Source: Marine Group I thaumarchaeote (GTDB lineage Archaea; Thermoproteota; Nitrososphaeria; Nitrososphaerales; Nitrosopumilaceae). From it: a DNA stretch of 51,437 nt. Below are positions 31,802 through 40,772 of the stretch, piece after piece (within the stretch, counting starts at the first letter, position 1; each line of letters opens with the position of its first letter). The notes below the pieces were generated by a model, which searched no databases, was not told the DNA's origin, and worked only from the letters and a program-made list of their open reading frames with translations. The translations under genes were made by a program, and so were the position numbers. The DNA lies in NCBI GenBank assembly GCA_013390905.1, contig JACATG010000008.1, forward strand, positions 1 to 51,437, written 5' to 3'.

Positions 31802-32839
31802 TTACATCTTTCGTTTAAGGCCTTTTGCTAATCTTAATGCATCTACAAGACCATCAGCATACCCAATACTCAAAATTGCTACCTCATCTTGACCATCTTC
31901 TAGGAATTTCTCTGCGTCTTGTATGTACAATTCTGCATTTTCCAAAATTTTTTGAAATTCTTTTTGATCTTTGTAGTGATGTTCAACTTCACCAAGCGCC
32001 TCTTTAACCATTGGAACGTACTTTTCTATCATTTGAATTGAAATTTTCTTTGTTTTTTCAGAATTATCAAATGGGTCATCAATACATTCTACTAGTATTT
32101 TCAAGGCATCTGATTCAGTAAAGTGTAATCTACCTGGAATGATTATGGTATGTGGTGGCTTTCCAAAATCTTTTTTCTTCAAACTAGATATTTTACCTGA
32201 AATAATTGATTGATCTTTGAATCCGATTCTTGATGCAACTATGACATAAGTAGATAAGCTTATGACATTTCTTCTTTGTCCTTTTTCTGTTTCTAATAAT
32301 CCATTTAACGCATCTTTAGGATCCAAGAAAAAATCTTTGTCTTGATTGTACTCTAAGAGAAGTACTGTATGATTTCCCTCAATAATATTTTTGTAAATTA
32401 GATAGTATGGTGTTGTGAGTGATTTCATTTCACTCATTATTGTTGCAATTCTTCCAATTTTGTAAAAATGTAAACCACATTCTCCTATCATTGAAGTAAG
32501 TGATGATGAAGCATGAATAGAATATGTCTTTATTTTTTCTTTAATTGCCCTTGTTCTTAATTCAATATGTGTTGTTGCAATGTATGGGTCTCCATATGAT
32601 AGCAAAACTACTTTCTTTTTCTTTGCATTTTGTAAAATCTCATTTCCATCTTCTACCAACCATCTTTTTGCAGGTTTGAATTCACCTTTTGTTATATTTT
32701 TTATTTTATCAAAATCAGATTTTTCAATTGGACTAGTAAATTGTTCAAGATAAACAATATCTGCTTTTGATAAAATATCTAATCCCTCACTAGGAATTGA
32801 TTTAAATCCAGAAATTCCTAAACCTACAAACCAAAGCAT
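31802..32839 (-). CDS. dphB: Diphthine synthase fused to DUF357
   Basis: 345 residues. Residues 1-255 are the SAM-dependent diphthine synthase (MLWFVGLGISGFKSIPSEGL; LLSYGDPYIATTHIELRTRA; ASSSLTSMIGECGLHFYKIG). It methylates the modified histidine of translation factor aEF2. The last 80 residues (MVKEALGEVEHHYKDQKEFQ; LSIGYADGLVDALRLAKGLK) are a helical DUF357 domain, normally a separate small archaeal protein. The start ATG overlaps the last base of lysK's stop codon. Confidence 0.9.
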   Translation of the reverse strand: MLWFVGLGISGFKSIPSEGLDILSKADIVYLEQFTSPIEKSDFDKIKNITKGEFKPAKRWLVEDGNEILQNAKKKKVVLLSYGDPYIATTHIELRTRAIKEKIKTYSIHASSSLTSMIGECGLHFYKIGRIATIMSEMKSLTTPYYLIYKNIIEGNHTVLLLEYNQDKDFFLDPKDALNGLLETEKGQRRNVISLSTYVIVASRIGFKDQSIISGKISSLKKKDFGKPPHTIIIPGRLHFTESDALKILVECIDDPFDNSEKTKKISIQMIEKYVPMVKEALGEVEHHYKDQKEFQKILENAELYIQDAEKFLEDGQDEVAILSIGYADGLVDALRLAKGLKRKM

Positions 32840-33966
32840 TACCTCATCTTTTTATCATGAAGTCTTTTTAAATGCTGAAGGGTTTTCTTGAGAATCTCAA
32901 TTCCTCTTAGAAATTCATCGATTGAAACTTTCTCGTCAATTGTATGAGCCTCATGTGGATCTCCTGGGCCATATGTAACAACAGGAATTTTCCACTGATT
33001 TCCAAGAACGTTCATGTCACCTGTGCCTGTTTTTCTGATTAGAGTTGGTCTTGAATGTTCTATATCAATAATTCCAAGGGTAAATGCCCTAACCAATGGT
33101 GAATTATGAGCTGCTTCAAAAGGTTCTGTTTCATCAAGAATTGAATAAAACGCTTCTACCCCTCTTTTCTCCGCAATTTCTTTTACCAACATTGCAATTT
33201 TTTGTTCAGTGGATTTACAGTTCATGTCTACAGGAATTCTAATATCAAAAGTGGTTTCACACTCTTTTGGAGTTACATTATGACTAATTCCACCTTTAAT
33301 TTCAGTTATAGTTGCAGTCAATAACATTCCTTTGGTTTTACCATCTTGACCAACTTCCAACCCTTCTTTGAGTTCTTTTGCAAAAATTATTGATTCTTGA
33401 ATTGCATTTTTTGAAAGCCATGGTGCACTTGCATGAGAACTATCCTCAACACTAACTTTGAGATTAATTGCTAACCTTCCTTTGTATGCTATTGTGACTT
33501 GTTTAACTCCGCTTGGTTCTCCAAAAATTGCATAATCAATTCCCATGTTTTTTTTAACTAAATATTTTATTCCCGTAGCACTTCCTTCTTCATCTACAGC
33601 TGCTACAAAAATTATAGTTCCATTGTTATTTTGAATTGATGCTGCAGCAAATAGCATCGCAATTAATGGTGCTTTTGCATCTGATGCTCCACGACCGTAA
33701 AGTAAATCTCCCTCTTTTCTAACTTTGACTTTTCCTGGAACAACATCCATGTGTCCACATAACATAATTTTTGGTGAACCAGTTCCTTTCTTTGCAATTA
33801 AATTTCCTACTTCATCAATTTGAATATCTTCAAATCCTAAATCATCACATTTATCAGCTAAAAAATCTGTCAGTGGTTTTTCACTGAGGGATGGTGTGTA
33901 AAGTCTGAGTGCTTTCTCAAGTGTCCTCACTTCAAATCCTGGTGTCACTGAAAAATGAGCGTTCAA
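32839..33966 (-). CDS. lysK: LysW-lysine/LysW-ornithine hydrolase (M20 deacetylase family)
   Basis: 375 residues from TTG two codons after lysX. Zinc ligands of the M20 family are visible in MLCGHMDVVPG, GRGASDAKAP, AAVDEEGSATG (general-base Glu) and GPGDPHEAHTIDEKV. In the LysW pathway it releases free lysine (or ornithine) from the carrier protein. It lies directly after lysX-lysW1 and is the only copy in the window, so it probably serves both pathways, as in Sulfolobus. Confidence 0.88.
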   Translation of the reverse strand: MNAHFSVTPGFEVRTLEKALRLYTPSLSEKPLTDFLADKCDDLGFEDIQIDEVGNLIAKKGTGSPKIMLCGHMDVVPGKVKVRKEGDLLYGRGASDAKAPLIAMLFAAASIQNNNGTIIFVAAVDEEGSATGIKYLVKKNMGIDYAIFGEPSGVKQVTIAYKGRLAINLKVSVEDSSHASAPWLSKNAIQESIIFAKELKEGLEVGQDGKTKGMLLTATITEIKGGISHNVTPKECETTFDIRIPVDMNCKSTEQKIAMLVKEIAEKRGVEAFYSILDETEPFEAAHNSPLVRAFTLGIIDIEHSRPTLIRKTGTGDMNVLGNQWKIPVVTYGPGDPHEAHTIDEKVSIDEFLRGIEILKKTLQHLKRLHDKKMR

Positions 33967-33969
33967 TTC

Positions 33970-34818
33970 TTACTTGCCTATCTTTAGTGCATAATCCAAC
34001 ATTAAGGAAGGAATATCTACCTTACACACTCTAACTGTATTTTTGTATTCTGTTGTATTGTTAACCTCATGGACAACTAGTCCTTTCTCATTACTTTCCA
34101 TCAAATCTACACCTACGATGTCTCCCTGAACTGCATTTTTTGCCTTAATACACATTTCTTCCATTTCTGGAGTGACTTTACATGGTTCTGCTACTCCGCC
34201 AAGTGCCATATTTGTTTTCCAATTCCCATTTTCGGAAGTCCTGTAAATCGCTGCAACTATTTTGTCTCCTACCATTATAGCTCGAATGTCTCTTGGTGGT
34301 CTTTTTACAAATTCTTCTAGGTAATGAATTTGGTAAATTGGGTACATATTTTCTCTACTATCAATAATTCCTTCAGCAGATTCTTTATCATTTAATTTTG
34401 AAATTAATCTACCCCAACTACCAACTGTTGGTTTGATTATTTTAGGAAATCCTTGTGTTTCTAATGCTTGTAAAGCTGCTTCTTTTGAAAAAGCAACTGT
34501 TGCATCAGGTGTTGGCACTCCAAATTTCTTTAGTAACATATGTGTGAATAATTTGTTTCCTGCAAAAACACCAGTATTAAGACAATTAATTACCTTGACT
34601 CCAAGTCCTTCTAGAGCTGCGGTTGAATGCAAGTTTCTATAGTAACTCACACATCTCTGAATAACTACGCCATAATCTTCAGGCTTTTTTTCTAAATTTA
34701 ATGCTAGTTTCTTACAATTAACCATCTGAATGTTGATGTTCCTTTTTTTACCAGCTTCTAGTAGAGCTTTTTCTTCCCAACGGATGGTATCGTAAAGAAT
34801 GGTAACGTCTGGACTCAC
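33970..34818 (-). CDS. lysX: LysW-2-aminoadipate ligase LysX (ATP-grasp)
   Basis: About 282 residues. The GTG at 34816-34818 overlaps the lysW1 stop (GTGA); a TTG three codons earlier is also possible. ATP-grasp features are seen in FPKIIKPTVGSWGRLISKLN, FVKRPPRDIRAIMVGDKIVA and VVHEVNNTTEYKNTVRV. It ligates the amino group of 2-aminoadipate to the carrier's terminal Glu. The ending NTTEYKN...VDIP is closer to what I recall of Thermus LysX than the second copy, and its neighbours are homocitrate synthase and lysK, so I call it the lysine enzyme. The substrate call is inferred. Confidence 0.8.
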   Translation of the reverse strand: MSPDVTILYDTIRWEEKALLEAGKKRNINIQMVNCKKLALNLEKKPEDYGVVIQRCVSYYRNLHSTAALEGLGVKVINCLNTGVFAGNKLFTHMLLKKFGVPTPDATVAFSKEAALQALETQGFPKIIKPTVGSWGRLISKLNDKESAEGIIDSRENMYPIYQIHYLEEFVKRPPRDIRAIMVGDKIVAAIYRTSENGNWKTNMALGGVAEPCKVTPEMEEMCIKAKNAVQGDIVGVDLMESNEKGLVVHEVNNTTEYKNTVRVCKVDIPSLMLDYALKIGK

Positions 34819-34982
34819 TGTCCCCAATCCTCGCCAACCGTTTGGGCAGGCTTTAGATCAAAACCGTCTGAACCTTTTGCTAATTCAAAACTTGCACCAC
34901 ATTCTGGACATGTTACAATCTCTCCTTCAAGTGCATCACTTGGTATGGAAATATCTGCATCACATTCTTCACATTTTGACAT
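34815..34982 (-). CDS. lysW: Amino-group carrier protein LysW, copy 1, ending in EDWGQ
   Basis: 55 residues from ATG at 34980-34982, with a GGAGGA ribosome binding site upstream. A zinc ribbon (MSKCEECDADISIPSDALEG; VTCPECGASFELA) is followed by an acidic tail ending TVGEDWGQ. In known LysW the last residue is Glu, whose gamma-carboxyl receives the substrate. Here the last codon reads CAG (Gln) before TGA. The stop overlaps the lysX start. Either the carrier is processed or it is not the working one; see findings. Confidence 0.88.
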   Translation of the reverse strand: MSKCEECDADISIPSDALEGEIVTCPECGASFELAKGSDGFDLKPAQTVGEDWGQ

Positions 34983-35004: not shown

Positions 35005-36171
35005 CTATTTATCACTAATTATCTTTTTTTCAAGTCTGTCTTCAAGTGGAATTTCTATAAGATCTCCCATTCTGAGATTCTTTAATCCAAGTGCAACTGC
35101 TTTTGCACCCTCCTCATCTTTTTCGAGGCCTAATAGTGACATTAGATATGCAGCTCCTGTCTTTCCTGCCAATTCTCCAAAGACAATTTTCCTTCTATTC
35201 CCAACTGCTCTTGGTGGTATAGGCTCATAGGCTGCAGGATTTCTGAGAATTGCTGCTAGGTGTGTTCCTGCTTTGTGTTTGTAAGCAGACGATCCCACAA
35301 TTGGTTTTGAGTCATATGGTTTGATTGATGTGTAATCTTCAATTAATCTAGATAGATCCAGTAACATATCTAATCTAAAATCGTTTGATGATTTGTATAG
35401 ATAAGTAAGTGCTACAGCAACTTCTGCAAGAGGTGGAATGCCCGTTCTTTCTCCAATACCATCAATAGTAGTATGAATCTGATCAGCACCTGCGTCACAT
35501 GCTGAAAATGCATTTGCTACTGCAAAACCAATATCATTGTGAACGTGTGCATCTAATGGTACATCAACCACCTCTCTAACTTTCTTAACAAAATTATACA
35601 TTCCAATTGGACGTAAAATTCCAACTGTATCTGGAAGACTGATTCTATCAACCCCTGCTTCTTCAATTGCCTTGCAAACTTTGAGTAAAAACTCAGGTTC
35701 TGTCCTACTACCGTCTTCTACTGTAAATCTAATTTTAAGACCATGAGATTTTGCATACTCTACAGTTTCTACAGCTCTGTTAAGCGCTTCTTCTCTTGAA
35801 ATATGTAGTTTATCTTTTAGATGAATATCTGAAATTCCTAAATATGCGGCACACCATTTTGCATCACAATCTAATGAAATATCAATGTCTGCTTTAAGAG
35901 CACGTCCATGAGAAACAATATCTGCCCTTAATCCTTGTTTAATGATTATTTTAGTTGCTTCTTTATGATCCTTTGATATAATTGGTGAGATTTCAATTTG
36001 ATCAACTCCAAAATAATCTAACATCCATGCAATCTGAATTCTTTGTTTGTTTGTAAATGAAACACCTGGATGTTGTTCTCCTTCTCTTAAAGTACTGTCG
36101 AGGATTTTTATCTTCTTTGGGTTTTTGTCAAATGTATTGTAGATGTTTGCATAGTGATTCGGATCAGTCAT
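35005..36171 (-). CDS. lysS: Homocitrate synthase
   Basis: 388 residues, a TIM-barrel of the LeuA/NifV/LYS20 family. Metal and catalytic residues are in KILDSTLREGEQHPGVSF and LDAHVHNDIGFAVANAFSAC. The carboxyl part contains GSSAYKHKAGTHLAAILRNP. It condenses 2-oxoglutarate with acetyl-CoA, the first step of the aminoadipate route to lysine. Its place just before lysW1-lysX and the presence of that pathway support homocitrate rather than isopropylmalate synthase. The homoaconitase and homoisocitrate dehydrogenase genes are not in the window. TTTATATT (minus strand, about 36208-36215) fits a promoter. Confidence 0.85.
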   Translation of the reverse strand: MTDPNHYANIYNTFDKNPKKIKILDSTLREGEQHPGVSFTNKQRIQIAWMLDYFGVDQIEISPIISKDHKEATKIIIKQGLRADIVSHGRALKADIDISLDCDAKWCAAYLGISDIHLKDKLHISREEALNRAVETVEYAKSHGLKIRFTVEDGSRTEPEFLLKVCKAIEEAGVDRISLPDTVGILRPIGMYNFVKKVREVVDVPLDAHVHNDIGFAVANAFSACDAGADQIHTTIDGIGERTGIPPLAEVAVALTYLYKSSNDFRLDMLLDLSRLIEDYTSIKPYDSKPIVGSSAYKHKAGTHLAAILRNPAAYEPIPPRAVGNRRKIVFGELAGKTGAAYLMSLLGLEKDEEGAKAVALGLKNLRMGDLIEIPLEDRLEKKIISDK

Positions 36172-36273: not shown

Positions 36274-36288
36274 AAACGAAAGTCGTTT
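36274..36288. promoter_or_regulatory. Perfect inverted repeat AAACGA-AAG-TCGTTT
   Basis: Six-base arms with a three-base centre lie at the end of the Lrp-type gene and 103-117 bases before the homocitrate synthase ATG. TCGTTG also occurs at 36180 and 36222 in the same gap. These could be regulator half-sites; there is no T-run to make it a terminator. Confidence 0.3.
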
Positions 36289-36706
36289 AGATTACTTTTT
36301 TCAAAATAATTACAGTATTTGTATCAACTACTCCTGGAATTTTTCTTAACGCATCAATACTGTTATTAATTTCAGCAATAGTTGCTGCACTGATAATTAC
36401 TGTAATATCATATTGACCTGTAATTTCATAAACTGTTTTTACTCCTTCTAATTTGGTTAGTTTTATAGAAACTTTAGATGTGTCCATTGCAGAATCCACT
36501 GAAACTAAAACAATTGCACTAGTAGCATTTTCTTCACCAAGTTCCAAAGTAAATTTTTTAATAGTTCCACTACCTAGTAGATTTTTTACACGTCTTCTTA
36601 CTGCTGATTCAGAAAGCTTTAGTTTTTTACCAATGTCTACAAATGATTCTCTAGAGTTTTCTTTTAGATATTCAATAATCTTTTCGTCTACCTTATCTAT
36701 GTACAT
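36287..36706 (-). CDS. Lrp/AsnC-family regulator of the lysine/arginine block (LysM-like)
   Basis: 139 residues. Winged helix: KVDEKIIEYLKENSRESFVD, IGKKLKLSESAVRRRVKNLL. RAM domain: VKTVYEITGQYDITVIISAA and PGVVDTNTVIILKKVI. Its ATG lies inside the last 14 bases of lysJ, so it is cotranscribed with the arginine-side genes and sits upstream of homocitrate synthase. In Sulfolobus the Lrp-type LysM controls lysine genes, which makes an amino-acid-responsive role here likely, but this is inference from context. Confidence 0.85.
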   Translation of the reverse strand: MYIDKVDEKIIEYLKENSRESFVDIGKKLKLSESAVRRRVKNLLGSGTIKKFTLELGEENATSAIVLVSVDSAMDTSKVSIKLTKLEGVKTVYEITGQYDITVIISAATIAEINNSIDALRKIPGVVDTNTVIILKKVI

Positions 36707-37874
36707 TACGTTTTTGCTCCTCTTCAGTTAGTATAGAATCCAGAACATGTAAAACCTTTGTTATGTCGTCCTCCGATATTACAAGTGGTGGAAGAATTCT
36801 TAGTATATTTCTTCCAGAGTATAACATTAGAATGCCTTCTTTTATCAATCCCATTAGAATATCTTTGATTTCAAATTTCATCTCTATTCCTATCATAAGC
36901 CCTTTTCCACGAATTTCTCTAATCATAGTGTGTTTTTCTTTTAGTTTCTCTAACCCTTCTCTGAAAATTTTTCCCATCTTCTCAGAATTCTCAATCAATC
37001 CATCCTCAGTTAATGCTTTGAGAGATGCAATTCCTGCTGCACAGGATAATGGGTTTCCTCCAAATGTTGAAGAATGTTCTCCTTTACTCATCGAAGCTAG
37101 AATTTCAGGTCTTACAAGAGTTACACCCATTGGCACTCCTCCTGCTATTCCTTTTGCCAGACATAAAATATCTGGTGCAGTATTCCAATGATCACAAGCC
37201 CATAATCGTCCAGTTCTACCTAAACCAGCTTGTATTTCGTCAAAAATTAACAGAATTCCTTTTTCATTACAAAGTTTTCTCACTTCTTGCAAAAATCCTT
37301 CAGGTGCAACAATAATTCCACTCTCGCCTTGGATTGGTTCTAAAATTACAAACGCTGTATCGTCATCAATAACTGAACGAAGTGATTCTATATCTCCAAA
37401 AGATGCAAAAGAAACTTTCTCAACTAGTGGTTCAAATGGTTTTCTGTATTTTGGACTAAATGTTAATGACAAAGCACCAAAAGATTTTCCGTGATAGGAA
37501 CCTTTCATTGCAATCATTCCTTTTTTACCAGTAAACTTTCTTGCAAACTTTATTGCGGCTTCAATTGCTTCTGCTCCACTATTGTTTAGATGAACTTGTG
37601 TGAGTCCTTTTGGAGCTAGTCCAATAAGCATTTTCAAAAACTCTTCTCTTGTTTTGTTATATAGTGAACTATGAACAGTGATAATTTTATCAAGTTGTTT
37701 TTTTATTGCATTGTTAACTCTTTGATTTTGGTGACCTACTAGTGCTACACCATATCCGCCCATACAGTCGATGTATTCTTTTCCATCAATGTCCCATACA
37801 TGAGCTCCAACTCCTTTTTCAATTGTAACTGGAAATCTCTGATAGAGATTTCCCATAAATTGATCTTCACTCAT
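36693..37874 (-). CDS. lysJ: LysW-aminoadipate semialdehyde/glutamate semialdehyde aminotransferase
   Basis: 393 residues, class III PLP aminotransferase of the ArgD/LysJ group. GSYHGKSFGALSLTFSPKYR, LLIFDEIQAGLGRTGRLWAC and the PLP lysine in LCLAKGIAGGVPMGVTLV (about residue 240) are visible. It converts the carrier-bound semialdehyde to carrier-bound lysine or ornithine. Overlaps lysZ by eight bases and the Lrp gene by 14. The only such gene in the window. Confidence 0.9.
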   Translation of the reverse strand: MSEDQFMGNLYQRFPVTIEKGVGAHVWDIDGKEYIDCMGGYGVALVGHQNQRVNNAIKKQLDKIITVHSSLYNKTREEFLKMLIGLAPKGLTQVHLNNSGAEAIEAAIKFARKFTGKKGMIAMKGSYHGKSFGALSLTFSPKYRKPFEPLVEKVSFASFGDIESLRSVIDDDTAFVILEPIQGESGIIVAPEGFLQEVRKLCNEKGILLIFDEIQAGLGRTGRLWACDHWNTAPDILCLAKGIAGGVPMGVTLVRPEILASMSKGEHSSTFGGNPLSCAAGIASLKALTEDGLIENSEKMGKIFREGLEKLKEKHTMIREIRGKGLMIGIEMKFEIKDILMGLIKEGILMLYSGRNILRILPPLVISEDDITKVLHVLDSILTEEEQKRNVHR

Positions 37875-38670
37875 GTGTAATCACCGTACAATTATCATGT
37901 GCAATTGCAGAAGATATTGGATTTTCTTTCTGACCATTTGCAATTAATGCTTCTCTGACACCCATATCCAATGCTTCTGTAGCTGCTAAAATCTTCTTCT
38001 CCATTCCAGGTCCTATTTTTGGTCTAATTTCTTTTGCTTCTGCTAATGTTAGTTTAGGAACCAATTTGTCATCCATTAAAAGTCCATCAACATCTGTAAT
38101 GAATAATACTTTATCACAACCTACTTTCCCAGCTACATATGCTGCAGCCCTGTCTCCATCAACATTGAGAAATTCTGACTCTTCACTAATTGCTATTGGT
38201 GCAATAACAGGTGTGAGTCCTTGCTCTAAAAGTAATTTGATTAATCCTGAGTTTACTTCTCTAATTTTTCCAGTGTAGCCTCCATCAATTGCTTGTTTTC
38301 TACCTTTTTCATTAATTATGAGAAGCTTCTTTTTTCTGTCAGCTTCTATAATTCTGGCATCAACTCCTGAAAGACCAATTGCGTTAATGCCATTTTTCTG
38401 AAGCATTTGAACAATTCTCTTGTTTATTCTACCAGACATAACCATTGTAAAAATCTCAGCAGTCTCTTTGTCAGTATACCTGCTTTTGATTCCACTAGGT
38501 GATGTTACAAATTTTGGTTCTTTTCCAAGTTGCTTACAAACTTTAGTAACTTCTTTTCCACCACCATGAACTAAGATCACTCCCTCTGATTCTACTATTT
38601 TTTTAATGTCTGCAATTGTAGATGAATGTAAATTATCTACTACACTTCCACCAATTTTGATTGTGATCAT
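37867..38670 (-). CDS. lysZ: LysW-aminoadipate/glutamate 6-/5-kinase
   Basis: 267 residues of the amino-acid kinase family (ArgB/LysZ). MITIKIGGSVVDNLHSSTIA, GVILVHGGGKEV, LNVDGDRAAAYVAGKVGCDK and VLFITDVDGLLMDDK mark nucleotide and substrate sites. It phosphorylates the side-chain carboxyl of the carrier-bound amino acid. Starts two bases after lysY. Confidence 0.9.
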   Translation of the reverse strand: MITIKIGGSVVDNLHSSTIADIKKIVESEGVILVHGGGKEVTKVCKQLGKEPKFVTSPSGIKSRYTDKETAEIFTMVMSGRINKRIVQMLQKNGINAIGLSGVDARIIEADRKKKLLIINEKGRKQAIDGGYTGKIREVNSGLIKLLLEQGLTPVIAPIAISEESEFLNVDGDRAAAYVAGKVGCDKVLFITDVDGLLMDDKLVPKLTLAEAKEIRPKIGPGMEKKILAATEALDMGVREALIANGQKENPISSAIAHDNCTVITHE

Positions 38671-38672
38671 TT

Positions 38673-39719
38673 CTACACAGGAGTTAGTGGGGTATATCTC
38701 AGTCCATCCATTTCATCAAAACCACACATTATATTCATATTTTGAATGGCAGAGCCTGCTGCACCCTTCATCAAGTTATCTGATGCAGATAATGCAATCA
38801 ATCTGTTATTGTCTTCGTCAATCTCAAATCCAATATCACAAAAGTTTGAACCAACCAAGAACTTTGGATCTGGGAATTTGTATAAACCCTTTTTGTCACG
38901 GATGAGTCTGATAAATTTTTCATCACCATAAGCTTGACGATATAATTTCCACAATTCTTTTTCATCAATGTCTTTTTTCATGAATGTATGATTTGTACAT
39001 AAAATTCCACGAACTACATCAACTGCATGTGGACTCATTGAAATATGAATTTTCTTTCCTGCAATTTCACTAAGTTCTTGTTCAATCTCACCAGTATGTC
39101 TATGTTTTGCTGGTTTGTATGGTCTGATTACTCCTGCTCTCATTGCATGGTCAGTTCCAGAACCAGAACCTGCACCTGAAGACCCAATCTTTGAATCTAC
39201 AATTATGTGATCCGTTTCAATTATATCATTTCGAATTAATGGCGCAAGTGCTAATATTGATGTAACTGCCATGCATCCTGGACAAGAAACAAGTTGTGCT
39301 TTTTTAATTTCTTCTCTATGTAATTCAGGAATTCCAAAAACTGATTTTGATAAATAATCAGGGTGTGGGTGTTCCCATCCATACCATTTGTCGTAGTCCG
39401 CTTTATCATGTAATCTGTAATCAGCACTCAAATCAATTATTTTGATGCCTCTGTCATAGAGAGCCTTTACAATTTCAGTTGCAGTACCATGTGGAACAGC
39501 TGTGAAAACTAGGTCACACTTATCAATTAATTTATCATAATCTAATTCTGAGAAAGTAAGATCAGTAAATCCCTTCAAACTTGGTTGTACTCTATGAATA
39601 TATTCGCCAACATGTTGTCTTGATGTAACCATGGCGATCTCAACATCTGGATGGTTAACAAGAAGACGAAGTGTCTCTCCACCTACATAACCTGATGCTC
39701 CTACAATACCTACTTTCAT
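38673..39719 (-). CDS. lysY: LysW-aminoadipyl/glutamyl phosphate reductase
   Basis: 348 residues of the ArgC/LysY family. The NADPH site is MKVGIVGASGYVGGETLRLL. The catalytic Cys lies in AQLVSCPGCMAVTSILALAP. SKIGSSGAGSGSGTDHAMRA and the later His-containing segment ISMSPHAVDVVRG follow. A strong GAGGAGG ribosome binding site lies in the 28-base gap after argX. It reduces the carrier-bound acyl phosphate to the semialdehyde. Confidence 0.92.
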   Translation of the reverse strand: MKVGIVGASGYVGGETLRLLVNHPDVEIAMVTSRQHVGEYIHRVQPSLKGFTDLTFSELDYDKLIDKCDLVFTAVPHGTATEIVKALYDRGIKIIDLSADYRLHDKADYDKWYGWEHPHPDYLSKSVFGIPELHREEIKKAQLVSCPGCMAVTSILALAPLIRNDIIETDHIIVDSKIGSSGAGSGSGTDHAMRAGVIRPYKPAKHRHTGEIEQELSEIAGKKIHISMSPHAVDVVRGILCTNHTFMKKDIDEKELWKLYRQAYGDEKFIRLIRDKKGLYKFPDPKFLVGSNFCDIGFEIDEDNNRLIALSASDNLMKGAAGSAIQNMNIMCGFDEMDGLRYTPLTPV

Positions 39720-39747: not shown

Positions 39748-40605
39748 TTATTTCCTAACGTAGTTTAGAGCAAATTTTATCATTTCTTTTGGAATGTTTC
39801 GTTCTGCAACTCTTGCCAATCCTTTGAATTCAACTGTATTGTTTACTTCGTGTACAACTAAGCCTCTTTCATCGCCTTCCATCATATCTATTCCTAAAAT
39901 TCCCCCACCCATGGCTTTTGATGCTTTCACTGCCATATCCTCAATCTCTTTTGTGATCTCACAAAGTTCTGGATCTGCTCCAAGTGCTATGTTTGTCTTA
40001 AAACCACCTGATGATTTTCTATACATGGCTGCAATAGGTTCATCTCCTATCGTGATTACTCTGATATCCCTTGGTGGTCTTTTGATTAATTCTTGCAAGT
40101 AGTAAATTCTATCGTGTGGGCCATCTGTAATATTTCTTATTTCAAGAACTGCATCCATTGTATCTTTATCTTTAATTGGCATTACTCCTCTACCCCAACT
40201 TCCTATCACTGGCTTGATCACTAGAGGATATCCAACTTTTTCTAAATTCTCTGCCGCACTTTCACCAGAAAATGAAAAGTATGTTTTTGGTGTTGGAATA
40301 TTATTTTTTTTCAAAAGTAAAGTCATGAACATCTTATTTCCACAAACATTTGCAACATCAAATTTGTTTAGAACTGGAACGTCCATAAATTCTAGACTTG
40401 CAGTAAAGTGAAGTCCTCTAAAATAACTAACACATCTTTCTAAAACAATATCTCCAAAGTCATAGTCTTCTCTTTTACTATCTGTGTTAATTTGAGTAAT
40501 TTTTGCATCTAACATTACTGCATTATGTCCAAGATCTAATGCCTCTTTCTGAAGCATCTTTTCTTCTGTTCTTAGGCGATCAAATACGATACATACTTTT
40601 GACAT
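39748..40605 (-). CDS. argX: LysW-glutamate ligase ArgX (ATP-grasp)
   Basis: 285 residues, a paralogue of the lysX at 33970. Key stretches: PLVIKPVIGSWGRGVMPIKD, IKRPPRDIRVITIGDEPIAA, ALGADPELCEITKEIEDMAV and VVHEVNNTVEFKGLARVAER. The substrate-end motif NTVEFKG differs from NTTEYKN of the other copy. It starts at the stop of lysW2 (TAATG), follows argG in the operon and precedes lysY/lysZ/lysJ, so I infer glutamate as substrate and arginine as product pathway. Confidence 0.8.
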   Translation of the reverse strand: MSKVCIVFDRLRTEEKMLQKEALDLGHNAVMLDAKITQINTDSKREDYDFGDIVLERCVSYFRGLHFTASLEFMDVPVLNKFDVANVCGNKMFMTLLLKKNNIPTPKTYFSFSGESAAENLEKVGYPLVIKPVIGSWGRGVMPIKDKDTMDAVLEIRNITDGPHDRIYYLQELIKRPPRDIRVITIGDEPIAAMYRKSSGGFKTNIALGADPELCEITKEIEDMAVKASKAMGGGILGIDMMEGDERGLVVHEVNNTVEFKGLARVAERNIPKEMIKFALNYVRK

Positions 40606-40772
40606 TACTCTCCCCAGTCTTCGCCTACAGTTTCTGCTTGCTTAAGCTCAACGTTTGATCCGTCTTTTTTTGCGATTTCAAAGTCAGCGCCACAATCACG
40701 ACAGGAGATAATTTCTCCAACTGAGGCATCGTCTGGGATGTTTAATATTGCATCACATTCTGGGCAGTTCAT
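40605..40772 (-). CDS. lysW: Amino-group carrier protein LysW, copy 2, ending in EDWGE
   Basis: 55 residues with ATG at 40770-40772 overlapping the argG stop (ATGA). Zinc ribbon MNCPECDAILNIPDDASVGE and ISCRDCGADFEIA, then an acidic tail ending in ETVGEDWGE, the canonical carrier end whose terminal Glu gamma-carboxyl is acylated. The stop overlaps the argX ATG. This copy has every feature of a working carrier. Confidence 0.93.
   Translation of the reverse strand: MNCPECDAILNIPDDASVGEIISCRDCGADFEIAKKDGSNVELKQAETVGEDWGE

Follow-up and report, generated by a model that had tools for sequence, protein, structure and literature searches.

The loading site of the carrier protein LysW is the gamma-carboxyl group of its terminal glutamate, and this last residue is the chemical heart of the pathway. 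In the window, by which we mean the whole analysed stretch of DNA (51,437 nucleotides), the residue is encoded as one that cannot take the load: the gene lysW1 ends with a glutamine codon. The archaea concerned are among the most abundant marine groups. We ask whether such a carrier works and, if so, how its end is made ready for loading. The genes of the locus are listed below in coding order. They comprise two carriers and two ligases, but one lysZ, one lysY, one lysJ and one lysK.

40605..40772, minus strand: lysW2, the second carrier, ending in EDWGE (GAG TAA)
39748..40605, minus strand: argX, a LysX paralogue of the ArgX type that adjoins lysW2 and is its partner (TIGR02144, 292.6 bits vs 275.6)
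38673..39719, minus strand: lysY/argC reductase, sole copy in the locus (TIGR01850, 419.5 bits vs 233.6)
37867..38670, minus strand: lysZ kinase of the [LysW]-aminoadipate/[LysW]-glutamate type, sole copy in the locus (NF010662, 306 bits vs 194)
36693..37874, minus strand: lysJ/argD transaminase (TIGR00707, 435 bits vs 410)
36287..36706, minus strand: lysM, transcriptional regulator of the LysM type (NF040947, 187.9 bits vs 180)
35005..36171, minus strand: homocitrate synthase-like gene, entry to the aminoadipate route (LysS/LEU1-type matches below the equivalog cut-offs; position conserved in relatives)
34818-34982 (34815-34982 with the stop codon), minus strand: lysW1, zinc-ribbon amino-group carrier of 55 aa, C-terminus encoded as EDWGQ
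34818..34820, minus strand: terminal codon of lysW1, CAG (Gln) and not a Glu codon; the stop codon TGA occupies 34815-34817
33970..34818, minus strand: lysX1, ATP-grasp LysW ligase with a GTG start (TIGR02144, 325.9 bits vs 275.6)
32839..33966, minus strand: lysK, M20 metallohydrolase of the [LysW]-lysine hydrolase type (TIGR01902, 271 bits vs 163.1)

The 3' end of lysW1 reads GAG GAT TGG GGA CAG TGA, that is, EDWGQ and a stop. An earlier note on this DNA had stated that LysW1 ends in this way, that it adjoins lysX and the homocitrate synthase gene, and that LysW2 retains the glutamate. Direct reading of the codons, the order homocitrate synthase, lysW1, lysX1, lysK, and the EDWGE end of LysW2 bear out these statements. 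In profile searches LysW1 scored 89.2 bits with NF041070 (carrier_LysW_Arch, cut-off 75) and 46.5 bits with the LysW zinc-ribbon family PF21344 (cut-off 27), and it remained below the cut-off of the Thermus-type equivalog TIGR01206 (31.3 vs 53.2). Both pairs of zinc ligands (CEEC and CPEC) and the EDWG recognition tail are present, and the partner ligase has GSWGR, the motif by which this tail is read. In the zinc ribbon, the EDWG tail, the paired LysX and ArgX with GSWGR and the common LysZ, LysY, LysJ and LysK, the system is like those of Thermus, Sulfolobus, Thermococcus and Natrinema. The LysW and ArgW carriers described there end in glutamate, the loading site, whereas LysW1 encodes glutamine; judged by its gene, it is a variant carrier and not a standard LysW. 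Family models name these proteins LysW without flagging the terminal residue.

The product of lysX1 keeps GSWGR and all conserved active-site residues (invariant columns), and its relatives in PDB are 3vpd, 1uc8, 5k2m and 3vpb. The GTG start of lysX1 overlaps the lysW1 stop codon by 4 nt (GTGA in CAGTGA, window positions 34815-34818). This overlap favours CAG or GAG before TGA and is neutral as to Gln or Glu. We rejected the possibility that the overlap forces the glutamine, since GAGTGA preserves the same GTGA and since many Gln carriers end in CAATAA or CAGTAA without overlap.

The Gln end is far more general than the window. A whole-collection scan by protein similarity yielded 80 named relatives of the Nitrosopumilus/Nitrosarchaeum type. 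They comprise isolates, single cells and MAGs, and almost all have Nitrosopumilus, Nitrosarchaeum or Thaumarchaeota in the title. LysW1 ended in Gln in 76 of them and in Glu in the remaining 4. The earlier note asked whether Gln is conserved in related thaumarchaea only in the lysX-linked copy. It is conserved, and it is not restricted to that copy: there are lineages with Gln in both copies, in the argX-linked one alone, or in a single shared one. Of 300 sampled genomes of the class, 211 contained the Gln-ended motif GARGAYTGGGGNCARTRR; the reversed control had no matches. The window's family (f1) had at least one such motif in 161 of 171 genomes, f2 in 5/6 and f8 in 45/45; the motif was absent from the other families of the class in this sample. 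All tested genomes of f1, f2, f3 and f8 carry amoA except two incomplete ones, and amoA was found in none of the 12 tested genomes from other families. Family f3 (loci L065 and L066) is amoA-bearing, yet has Glu in both LysW copies.

In a phylum-wide sample, Gln-ended LysW was also identified outside the class, in f32 (8 genomes), f37 (4 genomes), f55 and f58 (one genome each; loci L256-L269), which overturned the possibility that Gln is limited to ammonia oxidisers. Of these 14 genomes, 13 yielded no Glu-ended motif; the exception was the f58 genome, in which a second LysW is Glu-ended. In f32, f37 and f55, the LysW of sister genera or species is Glu-ended, a pattern of independent origins of the glutamine. 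A match to the motif in f31 (G339) was discarded as not being a LysW.

Only two residues occupy the terminal position. The fetched loci contain 263 distinct LysW genes, of which 153 have CAR as the codon before the stop and the other 110 have GAR; a part of this set was gathered with Q/E patterns, and the sets found by similarity also contain only Q and E. All three stop codons are used in these genes, and both Gln codons occur across lineages. In the mixed set of LysW ORFs found by BLAST, 297/297 end in EDWG[QE], and the similarity-found relatives end in Q or E in 80 cases out of 80. At least 12 switches between the two residues are needed on the LysX tree; Fitch reconstruction gives 5 changes from Glu to Gln and 7 from Gln to Glu, the direction being dependent on the root and on parsimony. 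No column of the LysX1 alignment separates ligases partnered with Q from those partnered with E, GSWGR and the other conserved residues being invariant. Co-adaptation of the ligase to Gln was rejected on these grounds; the ArgX columns that do split by Q and E are best explained by family differences.

All four combinations of tails in the lysX-linked and argX-linked copies exist. The window has lysX-linked Gln and argX-linked Glu. Gln in both copies was found in G154, G284 and G057, and it is the state of genus g43 and its relatives; the tails are swapped, with lysX-linked Glu and argX-linked Gln, in G189, G159 and G283, and this is the state of genus g44 of family f8 (L135, L136, L152); Glu in both copies was found in G038, G054, G021 and G176. 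Within Nitrosopumilaceae, with few exceptions, Gln belongs to the lysX-linked copy and Glu to the argX-linked one.

Profile search identified a single LysW in each of the closed genomes G043, G141 and G147, and in all three it is Gln-ended. Its locus has homocitrate synthase and intact ArgX, LysY, LysZ, LysJ, LysX and LysK. Given that the only carrier beside both ligases is Gln-ended, it has to work, unless these organisms make neither amino acid by this route. The presence of several aconitase-type paralogues, together with the conserved locus, was counted against lysine and arginine being made otherwise. No clear DapB was found in the window genome, the sole weak match being lysY itself; G141 has two weak DapB matches just above the cut-off. 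As far as gene content tells, Gln-ended carriers are functional, which follows from the genomes that have no other carrier. In the loci of these three genomes (L133, L134 and L072 in G141, G147 and G043, respectively, from amoA-bearing families), the argX-linked copy was lost and the single Gln-ended LysW is common to ArgX and LysX. In locus L146 of G172 (a 3.2 Mb single contig from the window's family), lysW1 has been lost from between the homocitrate synthase gene and lysX1, and the two ligases have a single Glu-ended LysW2 to use.

How a glutamine can serve at the loading site may be explained in several ways. A sequencing or assembly error, suggested in the earlier note, or a pseudogene has a negligible probability: isolates, single cells and MAGs agree on the residue, which from lineage to lineage is written with either Gln codon and followed by any of the three stops; hundreds of independent genomes exclude it. 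Glu-tRNAGln is a normal archaeal intermediate, and misincorporation from it was set aside, as it would apply to every archaeon. It is very improbable that LysW1 is a decoy or a regulator while LysW2 carries both routes. The window does have one Glu-ended carrier, and G172 has a single Glu-ended LysW2, both ligases and no LysW1; against this, the carriers are only Gln-ended in G043, G141, G147, G154 and G057, and the argX-linked copy is the Gln one in G189, G159 and G283. As a general explanation this proposal of the earlier note is refuted by the closed genomes whose sole carrier ends in Gln. Another of its proposals, also very improbable, is that LysX loads the alpha-carboxyl group of the terminal Gln, which would make deamidation unnecessary. 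This group is free and chemically available, and the sequence does not forbid its use. However, Glu- and Gln-partnered ligases belong to the same LysX family and have identical conserved residues, the single-copy downstream enzymes (LysZ, LysY, LysJ and LysK) must take both carriers, end residues other than E and Q would be expected and none occurs in the 263 genes, and replacement of the terminal Glu of Natrinema ArgW by Ala (E54A) results in arginine auxotrophy (PMC10433800). Comparably improbable is transamidation, in which LysX or LysK would put the amino acid in the place of the Gln amide in one step, with ammonia released and no free LysW-Glu formed. Such an amide-for-amide exchange is energetically feasible and would give the same gamma-amide. 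Against it, thiol acyl-enzymes are not known from ATP-grasp ligases or M20 hydrolases, and the carrier would be LysW-Glu after the first round anyway, ATP-dependent loading still being needed.

Since the ligases with Glu and Gln partners are alike and one set of downstream enzymes serves both carriers within a cell, the same gamma-amide is expected, for which Gln must first become Glu. We consider it likely that the glutamine of the carrier is deamidated to glutamate before loading; deamidation before use, as performed by Dop on Pup, was among the possibilities of the earlier note and is left as the best explanation once the alternatives are weighed. In ammonia oxidisers and at least four other archaeal families the carrier probably needs to be activated by the loss of one ammonia before its first use. 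As to the enzyme, a separate amidase encoded elsewhere in the genome, dedicated or promiscuous and distinct from LysK, is rather unlikely. The families of the class that have Gln ends (f1, f2 and f8) all carry amoA in the members tested, which would fit a lineage-specific enzyme. On the other hand, Gln also arose in f32, f37, f55 and f58, and those loci share no extra gene: among the genes neighbouring Gln carriers outside the class, within the loci, only argG and argH recur, with no shared deamidase gene. LysK is thus the one hydrolase acting on the carrier that nearly all Gln loci have in common, and the repeated origins of Gln, together with the lack of a shared extra gene nearby, favour an enzyme that already belongs to the pathway.

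Enzymes of the LysK family are established to hydrolyse, at the terminal residue of the carrier, the gamma-amide bond of LysW-gamma-Lys and LysW-gamma-Orn. By economy LysK is a candidate deamidase of LysW-Gln, an assignment that we regard as evenly poised. It would require that the LysW body be held in the pocket with a leaving group of the size of ammonia. The M20 metal ligands of the window LysK are intact (H67, D91, E121/E122, E145 and H336, numbered by the translation of 32842-33951). Its structural model has pLDDT 90, and the best match in both sequence and fold is the LysK from Thermus thermophilus (5xoy), the closest solved relative, which cleaves LysW-gamma-Lys and for which no report of deamidating Gln-ended LysW was found in the open literature. 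The score with the stricter equivalog NF003367 is below the cut-off (262 vs 363). The fold matches of the model include 5-nitroanthranilate aminohydrolase, an enzyme of the M20 fold that is named an aminohydrolase. In the window lysK lies directly downstream of lysX1, and LysK is present in nearly all Gln loci that are long enough to show it. No LysK residue tracks the Q/E state in the alignment. Alignment positions typical of the amoA-bearing families (S90, A125 and others) were considered as possible co-adaptation and dismissed, as they are mostly also found in f3 with its Glu carriers and say little. The LysK of f3, where both LysW copies have Glu, resembles that of other ammonia oxidisers.

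We lean modestly towards the reading in which LysW1 is a working carrier, made as an amide pro-form and deamidated once, most likely by LysK. The terminal Gln of the translated protein would be LysW-gamma-NH2, with the same gamma-amide bond as in LysW-gamma-Lys and LysW-gamma-Orn and with ammonia as the leaving group. After one-time hydrolysis of Gln to Glu, most likely by LysK, LysX would put aminoadipate on the gamma-carboxyl group of LysW1, the common LysZ, LysY and LysJ enzymes would process the loaded carrier, and LysK would free lysine, the carrier returning to the cycle as LysW-Glu. More tentatively, many archaea may make the lysine and arginine carrier as an inactive amide activated by LysK, a metabolic counterpart of Dop and Pup that would have evolved independently and several times. 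An activity of this kind in LysK would be one that has gone unrecognised.

In species where Pup is encoded with a C-terminal Gln, Dop has two activities, cleaving Pup from its conjugates and deamidating PupQ (PMC8599861). In the Pup/Dop/PafA system the small protein is encoded with Gln at its end in some species, e.g. M. tuberculosis, and with Glu in others, a pattern present in LysW at the same terminal site. One hydrolase deamidates the protein and cleaves its gamma-amide conjugates, and the ligase uses the gamma-carboxylate; for LysW this part of the parallel is proposed. We claim no homology between the two systems. Pup has no zinc ribbon; Dop and PafA resemble glutamine synthetase, whereas LysK belongs to the M20 metallohydrolases and LysX to the ATP-grasp ligases; and Pup tags proteins for degradation, whereas LysW carries metabolites. 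Deamidation before loading would make LysW a second, unrelated case of a small carrier protein activated by conversion of a C-terminal Gln to Glu. No account of Gln-ended LysW was found in the open literature, while much of the work on LysW is in subscription journals, outside the scope of this search.

If LysK is the deamidase, the price of Gln is a single additional turnover for each carrier molecule, and the residue might be close to neutral. If LysK is product-inhibited, activation of new carriers could, as a guess, also depend on the demand for lysine and ornithine. The copy bias in Nitrosopumilaceae counts against the best explanation, as simple interchangeability of the two residues does not explain it; the nearly fixed Gln in the lysX-linked copy and Glu in the argX-linked copy suggest selection.
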